DNA of 39,621 nt, taken from Nitrospirota bacterium. GTDB lineage: Bacteria > Nitrospirota > Nitrospiria > Nitrospirales > Nitrospiraceae. The translations under genes and the position numbers were made by a program. The stretch covers positions 1-39,621 of the forward strand of contig VBOJ01000002.1 in the NCBI GenBank assembly GCA_005877775.1, given 5' to 3'. The notes beneath the pieces were generated by a model that had not been told where the DNA came from, did no database searches, and saw nothing but the letters and a program-made list of their open reading frames with translations. Below are positions 349-32,225 of this stretch, one piece after another; the first letter of the stretch is position 1; every line of letters begins with the position of its first letter.

Positions 349-735
349 ATGCCAACGAAGCACTCAGGAGCGGGGAGCACCATCCTGATCATCGAGGATG
401 AGGCACCGATCCGCGCCCTCCTTCGGGAAGTGCTCGAGCAGGCAGGCTACCACGTGGTCGAGGCCTCCGATGGTCGCGTCGGCCTGGAGTTGTACCGGAA
501 GGCTCCAACTGATCTGGTCATTACGGATATCGCCATGCCTGATCTGAACGGCCTGCATGCCACGCAAGAGATAGCCCGTGAGTTTCTCGGTGCGAAGGTC
601 ATCGCCATGAGCGGTGCCCCGGGGAAACAATACCTTTGCGATGTGGCGAAACTGCTCGGCGCCCACCGGACCTTGCAAAAGCCGTTTTATCGAGAGGAGC
701 TTCTCGAAGCGGTGCGACAGGAGTTACTGCGCTAA
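349..735 (+). CDS. Single-domain response regulator (CheY-like receiver)
   Basis: This encodes a 128-residue protein that is almost entirely one receiver domain. The acidic pair is E16/D17, the likely phosphoacceptor is D60 in the ITDIAMP segment, the switch residue is S88, and the conserved lysine is K111 in QKPF. All receiver landmarks are therefore present and it should accept phosphate from a histidine kinase. There is no output domain, so it must act by protein contact or in a phosphorelay. No kinase gene is adjacent. A second stand-alone receiver follows 24 nt downstream on the same strand, so the two are probably co-transcribed. The start codon has no strong Shine-Dalgarno sequence. 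The receiver call is firm; the pathway is unknown. Confidence 0.9.
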   Translation: MPTKHSGAGSTILIIEDEAPIRALLREVLEQAGYHVVEASDGRVGLELYRKAPTDLVITDIAMPDLNGLHATQEIAREFLGAKVIAMSGAPGKQYLCDVAKLLGAHRTLQKPFYREELLEAVRQELLR

Positions 736-759
736 TCATGAGGCGAGTGATGCGGATCG

Positions 760-1173
760 ATGAATACTAAACGCGTCGCACCCCCTGCCGGGACCCCGCT
801 CCACCTTCCAACCATTCTCCTCGTCGAAGACGATGAAAGTGTGCGTATCCTAGTGCGGACCATGCTGCTGCAACACGGCTACGAGGTGCTGTGTGCCGAA
901 GATAGCGACGAAGCTCTGAAGATCGCTCATGGGCATCGCGACCATCTCGACCTGCTCATTGCCGATATGGTGATGCCCGGCATGAACGGGCCTCAGTTAG
1001 CCCAACGGCTCCGTGTCCTGCAACCTAACCTCCCAGTCCTGTTCATGACGGGGTTGATCCAGGAAGACATTGTCCCAGGCACCCTCCTATCCGAGGCAGG
1101 GTTTCTCGAAAAACCCTTTACGCCGCAGGCGCTGGCCGCAAAGATCCAGGAGGTCCTGGCTGGCACAGCCTAG
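760..1173 (+). CDS. Single-domain response regulator (CheY-like receiver)
   Basis: This is a 137-residue stand-alone receiver. Acidic residues are E23/D24/D25, the likely phosphoacceptor is D69 in IADMVMP, the switch residue is T97 and the conserved lysine is K118 in EKPF. The N-terminal 17 residues are a proline-rich extension outside the domain. The segment LFMTGLIQED resembles receivers attached to hybrid histidine kinases. It lies 24 nt after the preceding receiver gene, so the pair may work together, for example as a phosphate sink and effector. No output domain or kinase is adjacent. The family assignment is secure; the partner is unknown. Confidence 0.9.
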   Translation: MNTKRVAPPAGTPLHLPTILLVEDDESVRILVRTMLLQHGYEVLCAEDSDEALKIAHGHRDHLDLLIADMVMPGMNGPQLAQRLRVLQPNLPVLFMTGLIQEDIVPGTLLSEAGFLEKPFTPQALAAKIQEVLAGTA

Positions 1174-20655: not shown

Positions 20656-21807
20656 TCAGAGTTCGGGGATGGGCATCGGCCTCGCGGACATCGCCAACGC
20701 CGGGAGAGAGGCTTTGCACTCGTTGATGACGCGCGCGAACACATCGGTGAGCATGGGATCAAAGCGGGTGTCTGCCTGGAGGGTGATCTGTTGAACGGCC
20801 GCTTCGATCGGCAATGCTTGCGGCGTGGGGTGGTCCGTGATCAAGTGATCGAATGTTTGGGCAATGGAGACGATGCGGGCGAGCAGGGGAATTCCCTCAC
20901 CCTGCAATCCGTACGGGTAGCCGGATCCGTCATACCGTTCGTGGTGATAGGAAATGATCTGGCCCACCTCAGCGGGAAGGCCAAGCGGGAGAATCATCCG
21001 GGCTCCGATTTCGGGATGGCGTTTGAGCCGGTCCTGCCCTGTGGTCTCATGCCTCTCGGTCTTGGAAAGAAAGTGATCCTCCATCGCGATGTTGCCGATA
21101 TCGTGGAGGAATGCTCCAAGCGCGAGGGATTTCTGTTCGGACAAGCTCAGGTTCAAGCGATTGGCCAGCAGCGTCGAGTAGAAGCTGACGCGACTGGAAT
21201 GGTTGAAGAGCTGCCGGTCTTTTGCCTCTAACAAGTCCGAGAGGAGCGGGATCAAGCTGGTGGAGGCACCAAACCGTGGGTCGGACTCCTGTTTCGCTTT
21301 CGTCAGCGAGGAATACTGCTCACTGAGGCGTTTCCAGGCTTGCTCACTCTCACGCTCGGCTGCTGCAAGCTCCCCCGAGTGCTTCAGGAAGCTTCGCAAG
21401 CAGTCGAGACGTTTCTTCTTCTCCAGTGTTTGATTGATCAGCGTAATCAGTTCGGTCACGTTGAACGGTTTGAGCAGATAGCCTGCCGCCCCGTGTCGAA
21501 TCCCTTCCATGGCTGATTTGAGGCTCCCGTACCCGGTGATGATGATCACTTCCACGTCCCCGTGCTCGATTTTGATGTCTTGCAGCAGGTCAAGGCCCTG
21601 CCGGTCAGGGAGCTTCTGATCGAGCGTCACCAAGTCAACGGGGTGTTCCTTCAGCACTCGCATCGCCACTTGGCCATTTTCAGCCACTTGGATATTGAAG
21701 AATGGACGGAGGATCACTTTGAGTGCGTCGCGAGGGCCAGCCTCGTCCTCGACCACCAGAATGGTGGGTTTGAGGGAATCGGGAATCATCATGGGGACCT
21801 TACTCAT
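20656..21807 (-). CDS. Response regulator with HD-GYP (c-di-GMP phosphodiesterase-type) output
   Basis: This 383-residue protein has an N-terminal receiver (about 14-130) with D63 as likely phosphoacceptor and K113 in LLKPF. A helical linker follows, then an HD-GYP domain (about 180-365). HD-GYP enzymes hydrolyse cyclic-di-GMP to GMP using two or three metal ions. Visible ligands include H203 in FNHSSRVS, H235/D236 in HDIGN, H264 in RHPEIG, and H288/H289 with D293 in HHERYDGSGYP. The usual HDIGK lysine is asparagine (N239). It is the last of three minus-strand regulators, downstream of the NtrC-type gene and the protein with two PilZ domains, so this locus probably handles c-di-GMP. Confidence 0.92.
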   Translation of the reverse strand: MSKVPMMIPDSLKPTILVVEDEAGPRDALKVILRPFFNIQVAENGQVAMRVLKEHPVDLVTLDQKLPDRQGLDLLQDIKIEHGDVEVIIITGYGSLKSAMEGIRHGAAGYLLKPFNVTELITLINQTLEKKKRLDCLRSFLKHSGELAAAERESEQAWKRLSEQYSSLTKAKQESDPRFGASTSLIPLLSDLLEAKDRQLFNHSSRVSFYSTLLANRLNLSLSEQKSLALGAFLHDIGNIAMEDHFLSKTERHETTGQDRLKRHPEIGARMILPLGLPAEVGQIISYHHERYDGSGYPYGLQGEGIPLLARIVSIAQTFDHLITDHPTPQALPIEAAVQQITLQADTRFDPMLTDVFARVINECKASLPALAMSARPMPIPEL

Positions 21808-22010
21808 AGGCAGTCTTGTACTTCATGCCTACGTGTTTGTCAAGCAATTCCAATGCCATAGAGACCTTCACTCATCGGCCTCTCAACCTGCGGGGCATTA
21901 GAGCAAGGACCTCGCTGTTAGGAGTGGTGGATTGGTTCAGGAGAGGTCCTGAAGAGAACCAGTTCGCAACGTGACTCCTACGGCGCTGTGCAAAATTGAT
22001 AGCACGTGTG

Positions 22011-23423
22011 TCATTCTTGATACATCTGTGTCTGGTCATTGACCACTTGGGGTTCGGGTCGGCTGATTCCCAAGGTATCCATCCTGTATTTGAGCATCCG
22101 GCGGCTGATTCCCAGGGCGGCTGCGGCGTGAGTCTGGACGTAGTTCGTTCGTTTGAGTGTGTCCAGGATAATCTCTTTCTCAAACTCCATCACGGCTTTT
22201 TCGAGAGAGAGCCGGCCTGAGAGGGTGTCTTCGCGCAGGGAAGAGGAGCGCGTGTCGGTTCGACAGACAGCGGGGAGGTGCTCAGGGAGGATCACGTTTC
22301 CCTGCGACCAGACGATTGCTTGCTCGACTACATTTTCGAGTTCCCGAACGTTGCCCGGCCAGGAATACTTCATAAGTAACTCGAGGGCCTCCTTGGAGAA
22401 TTCCTGGCTGGGGCGTTTGTCCTCCTCGTTCCGCTTGGCCAGAACGTGCTTGGCGAGGAGAGGGATGTCTTGCGCCCGGTCACGCAGGGCAGGCAGGAAG
22501 AGTGTGATCACGTTGATCCGGTAGTAGAGGTCTTCCCGAAACTGCCCTTGCCGAACGAGATCCTCCACATTCTTGTTGGTCGCGGCAATGATTCTGACAT
22601 CCACTTTGATTGATTGAGTGCCACCGATCCGCGTGAACTCGCGTTCCTGCAGGACCCGGAGCAGTTTTGCCTGGGTGGCGGGGCTCAGATCGCCGATCTC
22701 GTCGAGGAAGAGGCTGCCGCTGTGCGCAAGCTCGAACTGCCCCACCCGGCGTGCGGAGGCGTCCGTAAAGGAGCCTTTCTCATGTCCGAACAGTTCGCTC
22801 TCGATCAGTGTTTCCGGCAATGCCGCGCAGTTGAGCGGGATAAACGGGCGATCCCGGCGGGGGCTGTTGTAGTGGATCGCGCGAGCGACCAGTTCCTTGC
22901 CCGTTCCGCTCTCGCCGGTGATCAGCACAGTCGTTCGGCTGTCCGCGACCTGCTCGATTTTTGAATAGATCTCTTGCATGCTCGGGCTCTTCCCGACGAG
23001 GTTGTGGAATGAATAGCGATTGGCCACTTGCGCGCGGAGATATCGGACCTCCCGTTCGAGGTCATGTGTGTCGAGAGTTTTGGCGACGATCAGACGGAGC
23101 TCTTCGACGTCAAACGGTTTGGTGACATAATCGGCCGCCCCCATTTTCATGGCATCCACAGCCGTTTTGACCGTTTTGGTGCCCGTCAGCATGATCACGG
23201 GTATGCTCTGGCCCTCCGATCGGATCGTCTGCAGGACCTCCAATCCATCCGAGCCCGGTAGCATCACGTCCAGGATGACGAGGTTCGGAGCGTCCTGCCG
23301 GAACAGGTCCAGGCCTGTCCGCGCGTCCGGGGCGCAGGACACTTCGTAAATCGGTTCGAGGACCGCCTTCAGAGTGGCGCGAATGCCCGGTTCGTCATCG
23401 ACCAACAGAACCCGTTTCTTCAT
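22011..23423 (-). CDS. NtrC-family sigma-54-dependent response regulator
   Basis: This 470-residue activator has a receiver (about 1-120; D9/D10, D52, K102), an AAA+ sigma-54 interaction domain (about 140-380) and a C-terminal Fis-type helix-turn-helix (about 410-453). Walker A is GESGTGKE near 170 and Walker B is LFLDEIGD near 238. The sigma-54 contact loop reads GSFTDA at 217-222 rather than the canonical GAFTGA. It should activate sigma-54 promoters when phosphorylated, but I found none in the window with both -24 and -12 elements. GGGAGGGG lies immediately upstream of the ATG. It lies 263 nt downstream of the large multidomain gene, with no stand-alone kinase adjacent. Confidence 0.94.
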   Translation of the reverse strand: MKKRVLLVDDEPGIRATLKAVLEPIYEVSCAPDARTGLDLFRQDAPNLVILDVMLPGSDGLEVLQTIRSEGQSIPVIMLTGTKTVKTAVDAMKMGAADYVTKPFDVEELRLIVAKTLDTHDLEREVRYLRAQVANRYSFHNLVGKSPSMQEIYSKIEQVADSRTTVLITGESGTGKELVARAIHYNSPRRDRPFIPLNCAALPETLIESELFGHEKGSFTDASARRVGQFELAHSGSLFLDEIGDLSPATQAKLLRVLQEREFTRIGGTQSIKVDVRIIAATNKNVEDLVRQGQFREDLYYRINVITLFLPALRDRAQDIPLLAKHVLAKRNEEDKRPSQEFSKEALELLMKYSWPGNVRELENVVEQAIVWSQGNVILPEHLPAVCRTDTRSSSLREDTLSGRLSLEKAVMEFEKEIILDTLKRTNYVQTHAAAALGISRRMLKYRMDTLGISRPEPQVVNDQTQMYQE

Positions 23424-23686: not shown

Positions 23687-26600
23687 TCAGCCAGCAGAAT
23701 CCGGTTTTTCAGCGACTGCAATATACACTTGGTTCGCGAAGGTGGAATAGAGGCGAGGCCGTACCGCGCCACTGGCAATCAAGAGTATAAGGAGTTTCTG
23801 CTTATCGAAGAAGCGAAACAGCCCGGCTCGTTCTCCCTGCAGAATCTTTCCCAAACTGCCCACAAGCTGTTCGGCCTCCTTCACGTCATCTGGCCGTCGG
23901 GCCGTGCGCCTCAGGTTGCTCGCGATGGGAGCCAAATCCGCATAGGGCTTGAAGCTGGCCATGACCAACTTTCCCCGGGGCGACAGCACCCGCATCAGCT
24001 CGCGCAGGGTGAACAGGGGGTCCTGGAGGTACCCGATAACCAGATTGCAGAGAATGCGATCGAACTGATTGTCGCGGAACGGAAGGGGCCTGTTCAGATC
24101 GACGAGGCTCAGAGAGGCTCCGACGGGCGGTCGCGCGATGGAGTCGGCAGCAAACTGTCCCCGGAGTTCATCTGCCGCGTTGCTCAGGTTGCGTCGAGTC
24201 AAAGCGAGGGCGCGGGGGACAAGGTCCACGCCGACATAATGGGGCGGACGAAACTCCGGTCCCCTGCTGTGCAGCCGACGGTAGGCGTAGTTGAGCAGAA
24301 GAAACATGCAGAACGTGCCGTTCCCACAGCCAGCGTCCAGAATGCGCTCTCCCCTCTCCAATGGTCCCAACAGATCGTAACTATGGTGCAGGAGTTGCCA
24401 ATAGTCGGGAGAATTGGCGAGGCCACGAAGGGATTCCAGATACTCTCCCCAAAACTCAACCGCTTCGGCTTTCGTCAATCGCTGTTGGAGTCTGGCTCGC
24501 TCGCGCTCTATTCGTGTTTGGCGAGCGATTTCACGCGGCAACGGCTCTCGCACTGGTCCTTTGGAGGACAAGGGGTAAAGCTGTTCAAGACAACTGGCGG
24601 CCACTTCTCGGTAGATCGCCAGATCCCGTTTCGGATTCTCATGGAGGCGGTAGGACGGCTCAGGAAGAACGTATGACCCTCGAAATCGGGGACCTAAGGC
24701 GGTCTGTGGCTGTGTCACCGAGTCGTGGCGAGCCGCCGCACCGTTCTCCGACGTAAACAGGATGACAGGGGTGCGGATCTGCTCTGCGTCCTTCACCGTC
24801 GTTTTAATGTCGGCGTATCCTCCTTTCATGGCGTCTTCCAGCCAATGATCCGCATTGATCGTGCAGCCTAACAGGTTGATCACGCCCAGCCGATCCCCTC
24901 GCGCGTGGATGTCGATGAGGTCTTTCTGGTGGACCGACAGCAAGGCGGCTTTCACATCGAGGATACTGCTGAGGAGAACCAGGAGAGTGACGCGACGATC
25001 CTGAGCGACGGCTTTGAGGGCGACGCGAGCGGCGAGGCCGGTCGCGACCAATACAATGGGACTGGCCGGCCATGTGCGTTGCGCATAGTCCAGCAATTCA
25101 TGCAGATCCTGCTGCATGGAGGTCAACGTGGTGTTGACGATGCTCCCGTCGCTTTCCCCCACATGGTCGGTGTGATCGTAGCGGAGGACATGGAATCCAT
25201 TGCTGGCGAGGTAATAGGCCAGCGCGATGTACTCCTTCTTCGTTTCGCCGTAGGATGGTGAGATGATCACGATGGGGGAGACAGGAGGGAGTGTGTCCCG
25301 AGGCTTGTCGTGGTACAACGCGATACGCTGGCCTCTCTTATTCCAGCACTCTGTGAGCATGCTGACCAACCTGGTCGGTTCCTCCCTCCCGTCAACACGG
25401 AAGGGAGTGGTTAGCAATCGTGCGATCATCTGTTCAAGAACTTGTTCAGCCTCCTCGTTGATATGCAAGAGTCGAATGCCGACGAGCAGAGGACTGCCTG
25501 AATCGCCCGCCGTCCCTACTTCCGGAACGGTCGTGTCAGGGGCCATCCAGACGACTTCTCCGGTCACGGTGCAATCGGACGAGACAGCCACGGCGCCGGT
25601 CGACTGAGTCGCGAGCAGATCGGAGGGGGGAGACAGATGCAGAAGAAGACGACGCCCGAGCAGGTATTGCTGCGCGCGAACTCGCAGACAGACACCGCCC
25701 GTGCTGAGGTTGACGGTGGCGCCAGCATAGTGGCGAGTTCTTGAGGAAGAGTCTTCAGGCTCGACACGGACTGGGAGGGCCAGGTTCACTCGAACGGCCA
25801 GCCGGTATTCCGGGGGATCGCCCTCTTCTTCTTCGGAAGAACTTGAAGGCAACGCGGTGGACTGGACGGCTCCGGTCCCGGCAGGGCTGATTTCCAGCAG
25901 AAGATCCCCAGCCTCTTGGGGAGTCAGCAGGGCTGTGACCGTGACCGAAACGGACCGTTCCTGGAGGCCGTCGAGAAGTGAGGCAAGGATCAGTCTTTCA
26001 TCATTCCCAAGCTCCCCAAATTCGATGGCGAGGCCCAGCGCAGATTTTGCCGCAGCTTCACCGAGCCGGTCGGCCACCTCACGGATGCTCCGGAGTGTCG
26101 CCGGCAGCCCCATCACCCCCACATCGCTGATGAGGCTAATCCGGACCGGTTGGTTCTCGGTGGCGAACAGCACGCCTTCGCACACGATATAGGCACCGCC
26201 CAGGCTGAGGTTCAGCGTGGTTCCTTCCCAGGCTGTGTCTTTCAGAATCAGCCGGGTCTTGAGCCGCACCTCGATTCGGGGCGCGCCTCGTCGTTCGGGG
26301 TGCGGGAGGACCGGTTCCTTTTCCAGTAGGGTCACGGTGTCTGGCTCGTGAGGAGGCGAAGTGCGAAGGGGAGGTGGCTGCCCTTGAGACTCTTCTGCTC
26401 CCGCGACGGGACCGGCCTGCGGTGCCTGGAGCGTCTCGATAGCCGGCAGCCAGACTCGCATGCGAGTCCCAACGGCAGAAGGACGGTCCACCTCGATGAC
26501 CCCGCCATGTTCCTGAATGATCCGGGAGGCGGCCGTCCACTCGATGCCGGACTCGCCGGCGTCTGTTTTCTCGCGATCAGCCTTCCCCTGACCTTCGGAC

Positions 26601-27952
26601 GTGATTGCGATCTCCACATAGGAAGTGCCAGCCGGAGCTGGCAGCGAGGCGGACAGAGAAGAGATTTCTCCGGCTCCAACCATCCTCGTAGTCACGCGTA
26701 GCCGGCCTCCCTGACCGGCCTCCTGTAGCGCACGCCCGCTCTGAGTGATCAGACTCAGGAATGCCTGCTGGAGTCGCCCGGAGTCCGCGAAAACCTCGGG
26801 CAGTGTCCGGTCCAGGTGCGATTCGACCTGGATGGAGTGAACTCGTAGCTCGGTGCCTGCACGGGAGAGGACCTCCTCGAGGACGCGGGTGATTGAAACG
26901 GGAAGGCGTACCGGTGGTTGAGGCTCGGTATAGGCGACCAGAGCTTTGCCGATCTGTGCCGCGCGGGAGGCCTGCGACGCGACCACCTCTAGCTGATTTT
27001 CCAGCTGCAGATCCTGGACCTTCTTCAACAACCGCTCGGTATCGTCCAGGATTCCGGTGAGCGGGCTGCTGAGCTCGTGAGCCACCTGGGCAACGGATCG
27101 TCTCAATTCCATCAACCGGTCGGTCTGGCGCAGTTGTTCCTCCAGGCGCTCGATACGTGCTTGTTCCTGCGTTTGCTTGTGGATGTCCCGAACGACACCG
27201 ACCGTTCCGAGGAACTGCCGCTGGCGATTGTAGAGACCTGTGGCAGCGAGTTCGATTTCCCGGATGCTTGTCGGTGTCACAGTCCCGGTCTTGGTCGCCA
27301 ATTGGAGTTGAAGGTTGCGAGTGGCTCTGACGCCCGTGCGCCGTTCGTTGAATCGCCGTTCGGCTATCCGTGCCGCATCCGAGTGGACGAGTTTCGAATA
27401 GTGACTCCCGATCAATTCCTGGGGGCTGTATCCAAGCTGAGTGGCAAAGTCGGGACTGACGTGCACGAACCGTCCTTCCGTGTCCAGCTCATAGACCATA
27501 TCCGGCATGGTCTCAATCAGACGGATGTAACGCTCGTGGGTCAGATCCAGCCGCGTGCGCAGGTCTCGTTTTTCGAGGACCTCCCGCGTGACGATCATCA
27601 ACTCTGTCAGGAAAGCTGGAGATTTCTTAAACAGGTAATAGTCTGCGCCCGCGCGCATCGCCTGGACGGCTGTCGTGGCATCGGTCTGCTCGGTCTGCAC
27701 GATGACCGCGGCGTTCGGGGCCCGCTGCCTGAGTTCCGGGAGAATGTCCAGCCCGCTGCGGGGTGACAGTTGCTCGTCCAGCAGAATGACGTGCCAATCC
27801 TGTTTGGATGCCCATTCCAAGGCTTCCTCTGCAGAATAGACCGCTTCCACCCGACAACCGGGATAGAACCCACGCATGCTGATCGTGACCAGCTTGATCT
27901 CCTCGGCTTGCTCGTTCACAAGCAGCAAGGTGATCGGGTCGGTCTGCGGCAT
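23687..27952 (-). CDS. Giant signalling protein: REC-PAS-pseudokinase-PilZ-PilZ-LuxD-like-methyltransferase
   Basis: This is a 1421-residue single frame. Receiver 3-130: D59 in LLDEQLS, with N13/E14 in place of the usual acidic pair. PAS 138-256 and a short coiled coil. Histidine-kinase DHp with H292 in AHELSSPL, then an ATPase-like region 381-503 lacking the N-box asparagine and DxGxG. First PilZ 553-658, with RGAPR (555-559) and NLSLGG (581-586). Second PilZ 714-844, with RLAVR (717-721) and NLSTGG (748-753). LuxD-like alpha/beta-hydrolase 858-1126 (NGFHVLRYD, DHVGESDG). SAM methyltransferase about 1166-1421 with ILDAGCGNGTF. ATG 27952 is preferred because TGAGGAT precedes it; an in-frame ATG at 27994 lacks such a site. 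It probably integrates phosphorylation and c-di-GMP; the output substrate is unknown. Confidence 0.9.
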   Translation of the reverse strand: MPQTDPITLLLVNEQAEEIKLVTISMRGFYPGCRVEAVYSAEEALEWASKQDWHVILLDEQLSPRSGLDILPELRQRAPNAAVIVQTEQTDATTAVQAMRAGADYYLFKKSPAFLTELMIVTREVLEKRDLRTRLDLTHERYIRLIETMPDMVYELDTEGRFVHVSPDFATQLGYSPQELIGSHYSKLVHSDAARIAERRFNERRTGVRATRNLQLQLATKTGTVTPTSIREIELAATGLYNRQRQFLGTVGVVRDIHKQTQEQARIERLEEQLRQTDRLMELRRSVAQVAHELSSPLTGILDDTERLLKKVQDLQLENQLEVVASQASRAAQIGKALVAYTEPQPPVRLPVSITRVLEEVLSRAGTELRVHSIQVESHLDRTLPEVFADSGRLQQAFLSLITQSGRALQEAGQGGRLRVTTRMVGAGEISSLSASLPAPAGTSYVEIAITSEGQGKADREKTDAGESGIEWTAASRIIQEHGGVIEVDRPSAVGTRMRVWLPAIETLQAPQAGPVAGAEESQGQPPPLRTSPPHEPDTVTLLEKEPVLPHPERRGAPRIEVRLKTRLILKDTAWEGTTLNLSLGGAYIVCEGVLFATENQPVRISLISDVGVMGLPATLRSIREVADRLGEAAAKSALGLAIEFGELGNDERLILASLLDGLQERSVSVTVTALLTPQEAGDLLLEISPAGTGAVQSTALPSSSSEEEEGDPPEYRLAVRVNLALPVRVEPEDSSSRTRHYAGATVNLSTGGVCLRVRAQQYLLGRRLLLHLSPPSDLLATQSTGAVAVSSDCTVTGEVVWMAPDTTVPEVGTAGDSGSPLLVGIRLLHINEEAEQVLEQMIARLLTTPFRVDGREEPTRLVSMLTECWNKRGQRIALYHDKPRDTLPPVSPIVIISPSYGETKKEYIALAYYLASNGFHVLRYDHTDHVGESDGSIVNTTLTSMQQDLHELLDYAQRTWPASPIVLVATGLAARVALKAVAQDRRVTLLVLLSSILDVKAALLSVHQKDLIDIHARGDRLGVINLLGCTINADHWLEDAMKGGYADIKTTVKDAEQIRTPVILFTSENGAAARHDSVTQPQTALGPRFRGSYVLPEPSYRLHENPKRDLAIYREVAASCLEQLYPLSSKGPVREPLPREIARQTRIERERARLQQRLTKAEAVEFWGEYLESLRGLANSPDYWQLLHHSYDLLGPLERGERILDAGCGNGTFCMFLLLNYAYRRLHSRGPEFRPPHYVGVDLVPRALALTRRNLSNAADELRGQFAADSIARPPVGASLSLVDLNRPLPFRDNQFDRILCNLVIGYLQDPLFTLRELMRVLSPRGKLVMASFKPYADLAPIASNLRRTARRPDDVKEAEQLVGSLGKILQGERAGLFRFFDKQKLLILLIASGAVRPRLYSTFANQVYIAVAEKPDSAG

Positions 27953-28423
27953 CAGATCCTCATCACGGTCGGAATGTTTGGCTAACGATGGCATGCGGGC
28001 TGCCGCGCATCGCTAGCCATAATAGAGGAGGACGGTCTTGAATGTCAGCCCACACGTAGGATCCACAAAGAGGATCACGGCTCGTCGGCATCGATCAGTC
28101 CTACTCGGCTTGAACAGGGCACAGTGGCGCCCCGCCCTCTGAGGGCTCTATTGAATAGCACGTTCCCCCAGGGCTTTGGCAATCCATTGCATGAGGGGGC
28201 AGCCCAACTTTCGTAGGGGGAAGGAGGAGCGGGAGGATTCAAGGCCAGAAGATCCGCAGAGCCGGGGTTGCCAGAACGGACCGATGCATCATCTGGATAT
28301 ATAGTGTGAAGTAGAGGTTTTTTGATCAGAACTATCTATATGCAGAGGCGGCTAGATATGGCTCCCTTCGAGTTGGTTGAAACACGCTAAGGAGGGACCA
28401 AAAAAAGCTGTCGTTTCAGGGGG
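27953..28423. other. Intergenic region upstream of the giant signalling gene
   Basis: I see no gene in these 471 bases. They should contain the promoter of the minus-strand giant gene. An AT-rich patch with partly symmetric ATATATAG and CTATCTATAT words lies around 28297-28341. An A7 run near 28400 would read as a T tract on the minus strand after the gene at 28424, but no strong stem precedes it. Confidence 0.45.
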
Positions 28424-29425
28424 TCACTGCAGCGGGGAGGTTCCGTCGGTTGGGCAGGTGCCGGGCGTCATGTATAAAAGGTAATTGCCCATGCCATGCT
28501 GGACGCGGGAATCGTGCAACGGATGGTGATAGACCATGACCATCTCATAGTCGTCTTTCCTGTTGACTGAGAATCCTCTGGCATCCTTGAAGACCTGATG
28601 AGGTTGAAAAGCCAGGAACTGGCCGTCCTGCTCCACGTCAGGAACGGTACGCAGCAGGGTTCGCTGCGACGTCTTGTTCTCCAGGGCGATCAAGAGCAGC
28701 TCGTCGTGGCCGTGCGGATAGGCGAACTTCACGCATCCGTCCATCCGGAATTTCAGCGGCGCCGACAGAACGTGCACGCCAGGCTTGATTTCAATCCCTT
28801 CGTCGGTCTGATCCTTGCCCCGCTGTCCGAACTTGCTGTAGCAGACGATGTTAACCCCGACCTGATAGACGTCCATCTCTTTGATCGGGGTTCCTTCCGG
28901 AGCCATTTCCATCGTGAAGGTGGCCATCACGTCTTTGGTGGGAGGGGCCTTGTGGTAGAACGCGACCACAGACATGAGCTTTTGCCCCTTTCCAAGTTTC
29001 ACCCCGTAGCCATCAGGGAAACGGGCTTCGGTCAGTTCCAGGCCCGCGCCGCTGAAGAAGAGGGGCTCTCCAGGACAGGAAACGCTTTCCTTGTCGGTGT
29101 TGAGCATGAGGATATGGTGGAGGTACTGTTGCGGCAACGGCTTCCCATCCTTTGTGAACACAGCGGATTTGTAGCCGATGAGGTACATGTCTTTGGGAAG
29201 CTGGAAGGTGTGTTTGGGCATGCTGGCAGCCAGATCGCCGTCGTGTGGGGATGGCAGGTCAATGGGCCCGAACGTCAACGTGACGGTATTGCCTTCAATG
29301 GTGATGTTGGTGGTGGTTTGATTCTTCAAGGTCGGAACGGCGTGATCATGGCCGTGATTGTCTGCCGAGAAGGCCGGCGTCACACAAGCAAGAATCAACG
29401 CTGTGGCCACTACAGAGCGATCCAT
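28424..29425 (-). CDS. Exported protein resembling copper type II (PHM/DBM-like) monooxygenases
   Basis: This 333-residue protein has a signal peptide (about 1-20, ending AFSA) followed by a His-rich segment. Two beta-rich halves then resemble the tandem jelly rolls of copper type II monooxygenases. The first has a HH pair at 103-104 (YLHHILMLN) and H158 (AFYHK). The second has H238/H240 (PHGHD) and M312 (QHGMGNYLLYM), close to the HxH plus Met copper site of that family. Such enzymes hydroxylate aliphatic carbons using copper. The assignment rests on motif order only. ATG 29425 is preceded by AGGAGG. It lies 67 nt after the exported SnoaL-like gene, probably co-transcribed. Confidence 0.6.
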   Translation of the reverse strand: MDRSVVATALILACVTPAFSADNHGHDHAVPTLKNQTTTNITIEGNTVTLTFGPIDLPSPHDGDLAASMPKHTFQLPKDMYLIGYKSAVFTKDGKPLPQQYLHHILMLNTDKESVSCPGEPLFFSGAGLELTEARFPDGYGVKLGKGQKLMSVVAFYHKAPPTKDVMATFTMEMAPEGTPIKEMDVYQVGVNIVCYSKFGQRGKDQTDEGIEIKPGVHVLSAPLKFRMDGCVKFAYPHGHDELLLIALENKTSQRTLLRTVPDVEQDGQFLAFQPHQVFKDARGFSVNRKDDYEMVMVYHHPLHDSRVQHGMGNYLLYMTPGTCPTDGTSPLQ

Positions 29426-29492
29426 GTGTCCTCCTGACAAGTTGCCCAACATCTATGCCGACCAGGGGAGGCCTGTCCTCTTCGTCGGTCTG

Positions 29493-30377
29493 TCAGCGTA
29501 TGGCGGCTGATGTCGGGGGCGGGGTCAGCCGCTTCCAGACATAACTGCCACCGTGTTCGCGTGGCGGAATATTGTTCCTCTCCCCAACCCGCGTGTACCA
29601 CCAAATCCCTTTCGCGGCAGTGCCGTCCTCGGACAGCAGGACTTCGAACCCGCCTTCTCTGTCGTTTCCGGTCTGACGCCAGGTTCCCTGCCATTTCGGA
29701 CCGGCAACTCCGGTGGTTGTCAACCTGCCGCCCTGGTGTGTATAGGAGCCGTTGCCTGAGCGGTCGAGCGTGGCCTTATAGGATTTGTCCTCCTCCTCGA
29801 TCTCCCATTCTCCGCTCAGGTCAGGGGTCTCCAGTTCGTGAACGGTTCCAGACGCCGTCAGGATGGACGAGGACGGAAGTTGACTGGCGGGAAATGCGAT
29901 GAGTCCTCGATTGCGAGAGGACTCGTGCCAGGAGGTCAGAACCCAGCCGCCGGCTCGGCGCTCCAGAACTCCGGTCTCGCGCAAAGCCAACAGGGTGCGC
30001 CGTTGATTGGAACCCTGTCCGATATACCGGATATAGTCCAGTTCCATCGCGAACCAGGCAGTCTCGCCGCGGGTCCAGACTGTTAATGCGATGATCGGGA
30101 TCTCCAGCCGAGCCACCATCTCAAACTCCGCCTGCAGGTCTCGGGCGAGTTCGCCCCAGCCTACGTATTTTCGTCCCTCGATCGTATAGCTGATGATATC
30201 CACGTCGTGGGCGATCAGCCTCGAGAGAGTGGCAAGATCCTTCTCGGCGTTGGCCCGCACCAGGGCACGGAGCACGGCTTCCGGGCTGTTCGTGTCGGCG
30301 GCAATTCCAATTGGTTCGAAAAAAGTGAAAAGGAGGATGACCCAGGACCAGACACGGAGACTGTGCATCAGGCGCAT
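29493..30377 (-). CDS. Exported SnoaL/NTF2-like protein with C-terminal beta domain
   Basis: This 294-residue protein has a signal peptide (about 1-27). A SnoaL/NTF2-like domain follows (about 30-150: AVLRALVRANAEKDLATLSRLI, DVDIISY, GWGELARDL, WVLTSWHES). The C-terminal part (about 185-290) begins DLSGEWEIEEE and has regular beta strands with WQGTWRQTG and IWWYTRVG, resembling lipocalin-like or beta-barrel domains. NTF2-fold proteins bind small ligands or isomerise substrates; no catalytic residues could be assigned. It is the first gene of a likely two-gene operon with the copper-monooxygenase-like gene. Both products are exported, so they may act together in the periplasm. Confidence 0.75.
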   Translation of the reverse strand: MRLMHSLRVWSWVILLFTFFEPIGIAADTNSPEAVLRALVRANAEKDLATLSRLIAHDVDIISYTIEGRKYVGWGELARDLQAEFEMVARLEIPIIALTVWTRGETAWFAMELDYIRYIGQGSNQRRTLLALRETGVLERRAGGWVLTSWHESSRNRGLIAFPASQLPSSSILTASGTVHELETPDLSGEWEIEEEDKSYKATLDRSGNGSYTHQGGRLTTTGVAGPKWQGTWRQTGNDREGGFEVLLSEDGTAAKGIWWYTRVGERNNIPPREHGGSYVWKRLTPPPTSAAIR

Positions 30378-30501
30378 GCAGAGAGTTCCTGCAGGGTTGG
30401 TATCATGCCGAGCATGTGAGCTCGAGGCAGTGCCGAATTAATTGAGGTAAAATTACATGGCACGGCGCTGCTTGTCAAACAGTTTTTCCTGCGACAGCCT
30501 G

Positions 30502-31290
30502 TCAGGCCGTCGCGGCGCAGACCACGACGGTCACGTTGTCTTCTCCGCCGCGCCGATTGGCTTCTTCCACGAGCGCGAGACAGGCGGCTTCTGGTGATCT
30601 GCCTGCGTGAAGGAGTATGTCGGCAATCCGGCCGTCGTCCATCATCTTGGTCAGTCCATCCGTACAGAGCAGGATCAGATCGTCTGGTTGGAGCCGGTGG
30701 GTCGAACTATCGGGCTCGACGACGTCCCCAATACCCAGCGCGCGGGTCAGGACATGGCGCAGGGGATGCGTGGCAGCGTCCTCCGGCGAGAGCTGGCCGC
30801 TCCGGACATGTTCTTCAACCAAGGAATGGTCCTGCGTGAGCTGGAGCAGGGCACCAGCGCGGAGGAGGTAGGCTCGGCTGTCGCCCGCGTAAGCGAGACT
30901 CAGGTGCGGGATCGAACCGGACGGGATGCTGAGCACGACGATAGTGGTGCCCATGCCGCCCAGGAGTGGATGCTCGAACGCGTGTTTGCAGATGGTGTGG
31001 TGGGCGGCTTCGGTGAGCTGGCGCAACTGGGTCTCAGTCCAGGCTTGCCCAGCCTGAGACAAGCTGTCTGTGCCGGCCTGTCTTCTGACCTGTTCCGTGA
31101 TGGACTCCACCGCCAATCGACTGGCCACGTCCCCCCCCGCATGTCCTCCCATGCCGTCGGCCACGATCCAGAAGCCGACATCATTCAGCACCGCAAACGC
31201 GTCCTGGTTGGAAGAACGGACTTGCCCAATGTCTGTGAGTCCTGCTCCCCGCCAGGTGATGCTCTGAGCCGTCTTGCTGCGTGCCATCAT
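30502..31290 (-). CDS. PP2C-family serine/threonine protein phosphatase
   Basis: This 262-residue protein is a PPM/PP2C phosphatase of the bacterial Stp type, using two metal ions to dephosphorylate Ser/Thr. Motifs are GQVRSSNQDAF, VADGMGGHAGGDVAS, YAGDSRAYLLR, QDHSLVEE, CTDGLTKMMDD and RGGEDNVTVVV, covering the metal-binding aspartates. Length is typical for the stand-alone enzyme. No partner Hanks-type kinase gene is in the window. It starts 7 nt after the stop of the upstream RNase H-fold exonuclease gene, so the two share a transcript. Confidence 0.94.
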   Translation of the reverse strand: MMARSKTAQSITWRGAGLTDIGQVRSSNQDAFAVLNDVGFWIVADGMGGHAGGDVASRLAVESITEQVRRQAGTDSLSQAGQAWTETQLRQLTEAAHHTICKHAFEHPLLGGMGTTIVVLSIPSGSIPHLSLAYAGDSRAYLLRAGALLQLTQDHSLVEEHVRSGQLSPEDAATHPLRHVLTRALGIGDVVEPDSSTHRLQPDDLILLCTDGLTKMMDDGRIADILLHAGRSPEAACLALVEEANRRGGEDNVTVVVCAATA

Positions 31291-31297
31291 CAGAGAT

Positions 31298-32056
31298 CTA
31301 GCCCTTCGGTCCGTATCGTGCAGCCAGCCTGCTATAGAGCAATTCTGCCAGTGGTTCTAGATTGCGCGTGTCGGCCTCGTTGTACCGAAGCAAGCGGTCC
31401 CGCGCAGGCCTTTCTCCATTGCCCCAGGCGTGCCAGAGCCTGACCGCGTCCCACCCGTCCAGGCCTTGAAGGTCCGGTGCTCTCCGAATGCCCATCCGTC
31501 CCTCGATGTGTTTCAGGCCTCCGTCAAGGCCGAGACGGCGTGCGGCAAAGCAGAGGTCCAGGTGCGGATGATCCAGGACGACGCCGGGAAACGTGGCGCG
31601 CAGGTACGGCAGATCAAACCGGCTGCCGAAGAAGGTGACGACGAGATCGTAGTTGGCCAGCTCCTGGTTCAGCCGGTGTTCGGTGAGCGACTCCCCTTGT
31701 ACGAGACTGGTCATACGGCCATTGCCATAGAGGCCGACGACCGTGACCGCGTCGGCGGTGGGAGGACCACCGGTGGTCTCGATGTCCAGATAGACGGTTC
31801 GTGATCGGAAGGTGTCGAACAGGCGCCAATGGTCACGAGGCTTGAGACATTTCGAGAAGTATCGGGAGTGTCCGGCCTGGAGATGGACGACGGCCGAAGA
31901 GATGGTGGCATCATACAGACTCTTCCGCTCCGGTGAGAGGCCCGGAATCGAGCAGCGGGCAAGGAATGTCCGCCAATCCCTCACGCCGCTTTGCCAGAAG
32001 CGACGTTCCGTCTCTTCGCCGACGCCCTTCAGCAAGATGAAGGTGGATTGAATCAT
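31298..32056 (-). CDS. RNase H-fold 3'-5' exonuclease (YprB-like)
   Basis: This 252-residue protein has an N-terminal helical segment (IQSTFILLKGVGEETERRFW) resembling a helix-hairpin-helix element. An RNase H-like exonuclease domain follows, starting TVYLDIETTGG. Further DEDD-type acidic residues appear in VVTFFGSRFDLPYL and in RYNEADTRNL near the C-terminus. The family (YprB_RNaseH-like) is related to the exonuclease domain of family B polymerases; biological substrates are poorly known. ATG 32056 was chosen because the helical element then begins at once and CAGGG lies upstream; an upstream ATG would add 23 residues. It is divergent from the cyclophilin-like gene and co-directional with the PP2C gene 7 nt downstream. 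Confidence 0.85.
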   Translation of the reverse strand: MIQSTFILLKGVGEETERRFWQSGVRDWRTFLARCSIPGLSPERKSLYDATISSAVVHLQAGHSRYFSKCLKPRDHWRLFDTFRSRTVYLDIETTGGPPTADAVTVVGLYGNGRMTSLVQGESLTEHRLNQELANYDLVVTFFGSRFDLPYLRATFPGVVLDHPHLDLCFAARRLGLDGGLKHIEGRMGIRRAPDLQGLDGWDAVRLWHAWGNGERPARDRLLRYNEADTRNLEPLAELLYSRLAARYGPKG

Positions 32057-32225
32057 GAATGCCCTGAGTTTGCAGCCGTCACAGGTGGATTCTAGCCTTG
32101 ATTTCATGGGGGAAACAAGATACATTCCGCCGGGAACACGCCGTCACAGGCGTGAGTGACATGAAGCGCGTGCGCACAGCGGGCATCGCAGGAAGGGGAC
32201 GCAGGTTCCTGGACCGTTCGGTGTG

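Follow-up and report, generated by a model that had tools for sequence, protein, structure and literature searches.

Analysis of a 39,621-nucleotide stretch of a draft Nitrospirota genome (the window, part of one contig) indicated that a long protein encoded in it, which joins receiver, PAS, histidine-kinase-like, two PilZ, LuxD-type and S-adenosylmethionine (SAM) methyltransferase domains, belongs, in a derived and partly decayed form, to a group of Nitrospirota enzymes that is widespread and undescribed. Gene order and a natural fusion give good support for the pairing of lipid enzymes, mostly linked to PilZ domains, with seven-transmembrane (7TM) kinases, and this pairing likely functions as a signalling system. 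We regard it as an evenly balanced question whether the family consists of exchangeable lipid synthases that are linked to cyclic diguanylate (c-di-GMP) and paired with a 7TM receptor kinase in a quorum-sensing-like manner, with the window protein as a derived form.

Domains and replaced residues of the window protein

A single uninterrupted frame runs on the reverse strand over 23687-27994, with 1435 codons counted from the first ATG. The ATG at 27952, giving 1421 amino acids, is probably the start and is better supported than that at 27994, because a Shine-Dalgarno sequence (GAGGA) stands five bases 5' of it and residue 14-15 is the start point in many homologues (residue numbers here run from the 27994 ATG; 14 is to be deducted for the 27952 start). 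Pfam recognised Response_reg (33-125, 1e-15), PAS (155-271, 1e-14), PilZ twice (3e-19), Acyl_transf_2/LuxD (888-1095, 2e-19; 70.5 bits against a cut-off of 20.3) and a methyltransferase (1213-1355, 2e-12). HisKA and HATPase_c matched only under the Pfam cut-off, the latter with 17.6 bits against 26.4, and the NCBIfam LuxD equivalog gave 72.6 bits, below its cut-off of 420.

An earlier, sequence-only reading of the window had described one frame of about 1420 codons with seven domains in this order. The frame agrees with our result, and six domains have Pfam support in an order that is the same in other genomes, but the kinase stays under the threshold. That reading had also considered an assembly fusion of separate genes, which is ruled out because about 30 further genomes of the family show this order at a length of about 1400 amino acids. 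It knew of no described protein with this order, and in the open-access papers searched we likewise found neither such a protein nor a description of this pairing of enzyme and kinase. Among the relatives of the C-terminal half that carry a name, most are Nitrospirota drafts, and Nitrospinota, Elusimicrobia and a Deltaproteobacterium contribute one each. A mobile origin was rejected, as plasmid records gave no full-length match, and so was a defence-system protein, as the PADLOC mad2 match was confined to the methyltransferase fold.

The domains and their order thus stood, but the mechanism proposed in the sequence-only reading did not, as the loss of the LuxD triad and of the kinase ATP site had been overlooked. 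In the family alignment the triad consists of S (ATSL), D (AExD) and H (EALHRLxENP), and it is intact in about 50 relatives; in the window protein all three residues are replaced (Ser to Gly986, Asp to Gly1085, His to Tyr1115), so that an active acyl-hydrolase is unsupported. Ten of the LuxD positions conserved in intact members (n=60) are lost in the window, including the whole triad, and by our own calculation the chance that random losses include all three triad positions is about 0.004. The model of the C-terminal (LuxD-methyltransferase) half had a predicted local distance difference test (pLDDT) score of 86, and its best PDB match was LuxD (1THT, E 9e-17). In the kinase part, the H-box AHELSSPL with His306 is kept and the N-, G1- and G2-boxes of the ATP site are replaced or lost. 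The receiver phospho-Asp is kept in 39/40 family members and the acid pair is complete in only 1/40. Control by phosphorylation from the protein's own kinase is thus unsupported as well, because the ATP-site boxes are degraded and the usual receiver acid pair is missing.

Two other claims of that reading held. Both PilZ domains carry RxxxR and [DN]xSxxG, in the window in the NxSxxG form, which makes c-di-GMP binding plausible; in PilZ2 across the family, RxxxR was found in 53/54 members and [DN]xSxxG in 44/54. The methyltransferase retains motif I (DAGCGNG) and the acid D1257 after strand 2, and the structural matches of this domain alone are class I enzymes with varied substrates, none of which is singled out. 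The window protein most likely keeps methyl transfer and c-di-GMP binding, and its LuxD and kinase ATP domains are most likely structural.

A somewhat less probable reading is that the protein is a pure scaffold or a c-di-GMP-controlled phospho-relay adaptor (Rec, a His-carrying DHp and PilZ), in which the C-terminal enzymes are relics and the methyltransferase is drifting. It is consistent with the lost triad and ATP site, and the methyltransferase motifs are degraded in most long relatives too. The same-genus genome G001 points in this direction as well: assuming that its pieces on two contigs form one gene, the N-terminus is 94% identical to the window protein and the flanking regulators 89-92%, versus 71% for PilZ2, 60% for the methyltransferase and 53% for LuxD. 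Against this, motif I and the acidic residue are present in the window methyltransferase, which retains 87% of 55 family-invariant positions, versus about 42-62% in decayed long relatives. G001 has an intact triad and a 7TM kinase. As to whether the window copy is a recent sister of the G001 copy, the tree puts it outside, but the approximately unbiased (AU) test leaves a union of the two unrejected (p 0.13).

Lipid enzymes paired with 7TM kinases

Elsewhere the core unit is a PilZ-LuxD-methyltransferase gene followed directly by a 7TM-GAF histidine kinase, often with a sigma54 regulator and a Rec-HD-GYP gene next. Among 68 distinct 7TM-GAF kinase genes, 63 lie directly behind one of five lipid-enzyme types (LuxD-methyltransferase 42, acyl-ACP reductase 13, KASIII 4, UndA 3 and HMG-CoA reductase 1), and in the loci fetched by the kinase instead of by LuxD, 19/23 kinases follow a lipid enzyme. 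In one genome the partners are fused into a single open reading frame (ORF) of 1666 amino acids, PilZ-PilZ-LuxD-methyltransferase-7TM-GAF-kinase (L044/L170).

Nearly all intact LuxD triads are accompanied by a 7TM kinase (about 40 loci), and where the 7TM part is missing both enzymes mostly decay (triad lost and 7TM-less kinase in about 30). We observed three states: triad and methyltransferase motifs intact with an adjacent 7TM kinase; LuxD dead or deleted and the methyltransferase motif intact, with a PilZ-KASIII gene directly before the 7TM kinase (L052, L142 and the window genome); and both enzymes decayed beside a kinase that lacks 7TM. Between these states stand L049 and L071, which have a changed triad, a largely intact methyltransferase motif and a kinase without 7TM; PilZ-KASIII was not found in these genomes, which are about 70-80% complete, and G001 has none. 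At the window locus the kinase gene, expected from relatives between the synthase and the sigma54 regulator, is missing, so that the methyltransferase gene adjoins a sensor kinase gene in the family but not here. The window genome carries on another contig, C92 (L195:8167-12700), a PilZ-KASIII gene followed by that of a 977-amino-acid kinase with two 7TM regions.

In loci chosen by their 7TM kinase, genes for acyl-ACP reductase, UndA-like, KASIII or HMG-CoA reductase proteins immediately precede it, and most of them include a PilZ domain. The catalytic domains align with UndA, cyanobacterial acyl-ACP reductase and FabH; these known enzymes differ in that here most have an N-terminal PilZ fused and stand before a 7TM kinase. 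In the UndA- and acyl-ACP-reductase-type proteins the active-site residues align, and we take their catalytic roles to be those generally known. The PilZ domains of the KASIII, the HMG-CoA reductase and one UndA type carry the binding motifs. Sister kinases stand by different enzymes on the kinase tree (L043 with LuxD versus L218 with KASIII; L214 with UndA among LuxD kinases), which supports exchange of the enzyme. A minimal LuxD-methyltransferase gene with a FabF-like gene immediately before it was seen in two other Nitrospirota families.

Some further loci were seen around these kinases. A gene for a PilZ-HMG-CoA reductase fusion has a 7TM kinase gene directly after it (L215:5695-10657), and a UndA-like gene without PilZ is followed by a 7TM kinase and then a fatty-acid desaturase gene (L221:5062-9888). 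Related genomes (L220, L222, L238) have 7TM proteins of another build, 7TM plus PAS, with little or no GAF-kinase match.

Sigma54-like sites were found upstream of 29/92 synthase genes versus 0.44 expected from shuffled upstream regions, many of them from related genomes and thus not independent, and upstream of 5/45 HD-GYP genes versus 0.14 expected; there were none upstream of NtrC (0/45) or recN (0/39) genes. A site was looked for upstream of the window's own synthase gene and none was found. The number of weak matches over the whole window is not above chance, and therefore the site before the HD-GYP gene (see the table) counts by its position and recurrence. A sigma54 gene is present in the window genome, as are at least eight strong GGDEF domains.

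A possible lipid-signal module

In the reading that we regard as evenly balanced, intact members combine in one protein PilZ domains, which would sense c-di-GMP, with a LuxD-type acyl-ACP thioesterase/acyltransferase and a SAM methyltransferase. The product would most simply be a methylated acyl compound, for example a fatty-acid methyl ester. The membrane kinase encoded just downstream (7TM-GAF-HisKA-HATPase) would sense this product and signal to the NtrC-type regulator, which through sigma54 promoters would drive the synthase gene as positive feedback and the HD-GYP phosphodiesterase gene as feedback on c-di-GMP. The sequence-only reading had proposed methylation of an acylated or membrane-linked target, and the relatives suggest instead a small lipid product read by the 7TM kinase. 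The synthase part would be swappable, with PilZ-KASIII, acyl-ACP reductase, UndA-like decarboxylase or HMG-CoA reductase standing before a similar kinase. In the window lineage, where the triad is gone and the 7TM kinase stands behind PilZ-KASIII on C92 instead of at the locus, the methyltransferase may perhaps finish a KASIII-derived product.

Several known systems resemble parts of this arrangement. The Rpf/DSF system (RpfF-RpfC-RpfG; DSF, diffusible signal factor) has an acyl-chain-derived signal, a sensor kinase and a Rec-HD-GYP phosphodiesterase, but its synthase is of the crotonase type and it has no PilZ fusion or NtrC regulator. LuxD, the myristoyl-ACP thioesterase of the lux operon, belongs to the same domain family and is the best structural match, with the triad kept in intact relatives; here, in contrast, the domain is fused to PilZ and a methyltransferase, and the window has lost the triad. 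The Phc system of Ralstonia (PhcB-PhcS-PhcR-PhcQ) makes and senses methyl 3-hydroxymyristate through phcBSRQ, and its SAM methyltransferase, which makes a fatty-acid methyl ester signal, is encoded next to the sensor kinase and receiver proteins (PMC8578825). As far as the available part of that account goes, it differs in its LysR-type output and has no PilZ, LuxD or 7TM-GAF kinase. As a further precedent, 1-undecene is reported as a communication molecule (PMC10614000).

Several observations weigh against a lipid-signal module. The domains, the lost residues, the gene pairs, one natural fusion and the promoter-like sites are observed, and the product, the ligand, the phosphotransfer and the feedback are steps that we infer. 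Many of the loci behind the count of 63/68 had been collected for holding LuxD-methyltransferase, four 7TM kinases have no lipid-enzyme neighbour, and the distant LuxD-methyltransferase loci L148 and L189 have other kinases. The triad changes only about three times on the tree, so that its association with 7TM is strong in number and weak in independent events; an independent-pairs test had three contrasts and no power. Control by c-di-GMP is not general, because the acyl-ACP-reductase type and one UndA type lack the PilZ motifs and many LuxD-methyltransferase proteins of another family have no PilZ score. The cooperation of the methyltransferase with KASIII is a suggestion only, since the two genes lie on separate contigs of the window genome. 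The different enzymes beside sister kinases argue against a receptor tuned to one product.

This last point fits a general membrane readout, and it is possible, if on the whole unlikely, that the system serves membrane-lipid homeostasis: PilZ-fused enzymes would alter the acyl or neutral-lipid pool of the cell's own membrane under c-di-GMP, and the 7TM kinase would read the membrane state instead of a diffusible signal. The chemical variety of the enzymes, whose substrates are acyl-ACP, fatty acids or isoprenoid precursors, also suits this explanation. However, the paired genes, with a sigma54 site ahead of the synthase gene and HD-GYP further downstream, look like an autoinducer operon, and for a common membrane sensor there would be no need of an enzyme gene beside the kinase almost every time. 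Control of exopolysaccharide or PEP-CTERM proteins as by PrsK/PrsR of the XrtA/PEP-CTERM system, with the LuxD-like domain as an exosortase-associated hydrolase, is very improbable: both have a transmembrane kinase and a sigma54 NtrC-type regulator, the sigma54 regulon is typical of that system and the two proteins match PrsK and PrsR, but their scores fall short of the curated cut-offs (PrsK, TIGR02916, 146/300 bits; PrsR, TIGR02915, 432/502.6 bits), the gene neighbours are other, hydrolase-1 matches very weakly with 27 bits, and the neighbours that had been annotated included no exosortase gene.

More tentatively, and short of even confidence, we suggest that Nitrospirota, including nitrite-oxidising lineages, may have a modular lipid-signalling system without a described counterpart, in which an N-terminal PilZ domain would make synthesis of the lipid signal dependent on c-di-GMP, the synthase would be swapped between lineages, and the adjacent 7TM kinase would read the product and control sigma54 genes and c-di-GMP breakdown, with the window member caught mid-exchange. 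In a comparison of Nitrospirales, acyl-homoserine lactones are the only basis of cell-cell signalling described (PMC12342949), and a second, c-di-GMP-linked lipid system recurring throughout the phylum, if true, would offer testable receptors and synthases in nitrification-driving bacteria, which are difficult to manipulate. Synthases swapped next to the same type of kinase would further illustrate how novel chemical signals or membrane-lipid controls originate. The window copy is a natural test case, having a decayed enzyme and, in the same genome, a partner-type kinase beside another enzyme.

The locus and neighbouring genes

The common locus of the family comprises the synthase, the kinase (7TM-GAF-HisKA-HATPase in intact members), the NtrC-type regulator and Rec-HD-GYP, followed by recN on the opposite strand. 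The features at the window locus are listed below.

Features of the synthase locus, with positions in the window
Feature	Position	Strand	Basis
Rec-PAS-HK-PilZ-PilZ-LuxD-methyltransferase protein	23687..27952	-	single ORF; start from Shine-Dalgarno and homologues
Receiver domain; phospho-Asp D73 and Lys123 kept, acid pair N27-E28	27605..27931	-	Pfam, motif counts
PAS domain	27182..27532	-	Pfam 1e-14
Histidine-kinase-like region; His306 kept, ATP site degraded	26435..27151	-	sub-threshold HisKA/HATPase_c, alignments
PilZ domain 1; R569xxxR573 and NLSLGG	25925..26317	-	Pfam, motif counts
PilZ domain 2; R731xxxR735 and NLSTGG	25415..25822	-	Pfam, motif counts
LuxD-type acyltransferase/thioesterase domain; triad lost	24515..25339	-	Pfam, alignments, structure match
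Class I SAM methyltransferase domain; motif I DAGCGNG and D1257 intact	23690..24379	-	Pfam, alignment, structure matches
Sigma54-dependent NtrC/AtoC-type response regulator; relatives usually have a 7TM or 7TM-less kinase gene before it	22011..23423	-	
Sigma54 (-24/-12) promoter-like site TGGCATTGGAATTGC, 36 bases before the HD-GYP gene	21844..21858	-	
Rec-HD-GYP (RpfG-like) c-di-GMP phosphodiesterase candidate; HD and HHERxDGxGYP present	20656..21807	-	

Upstream of the synthase gene, 28424-29452 (-) encodes a probably exported protein of 342 amino acids without a Pfam or NCBIfam match; it is 72-90% identical in relatives, and its gene is retained upstream of the locus in most of them. Genes for a SnoaL-like protein, a PP2C phosphatase and an RNase_H_2 exonuclease follow at 29493-32125 (-), and their order upstream of the locus is kept family-wide. 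Far from the locus, at 349-1173 (+), lie two neighbouring short ORFs of 128 and 137 amino acids that are similar to each other.

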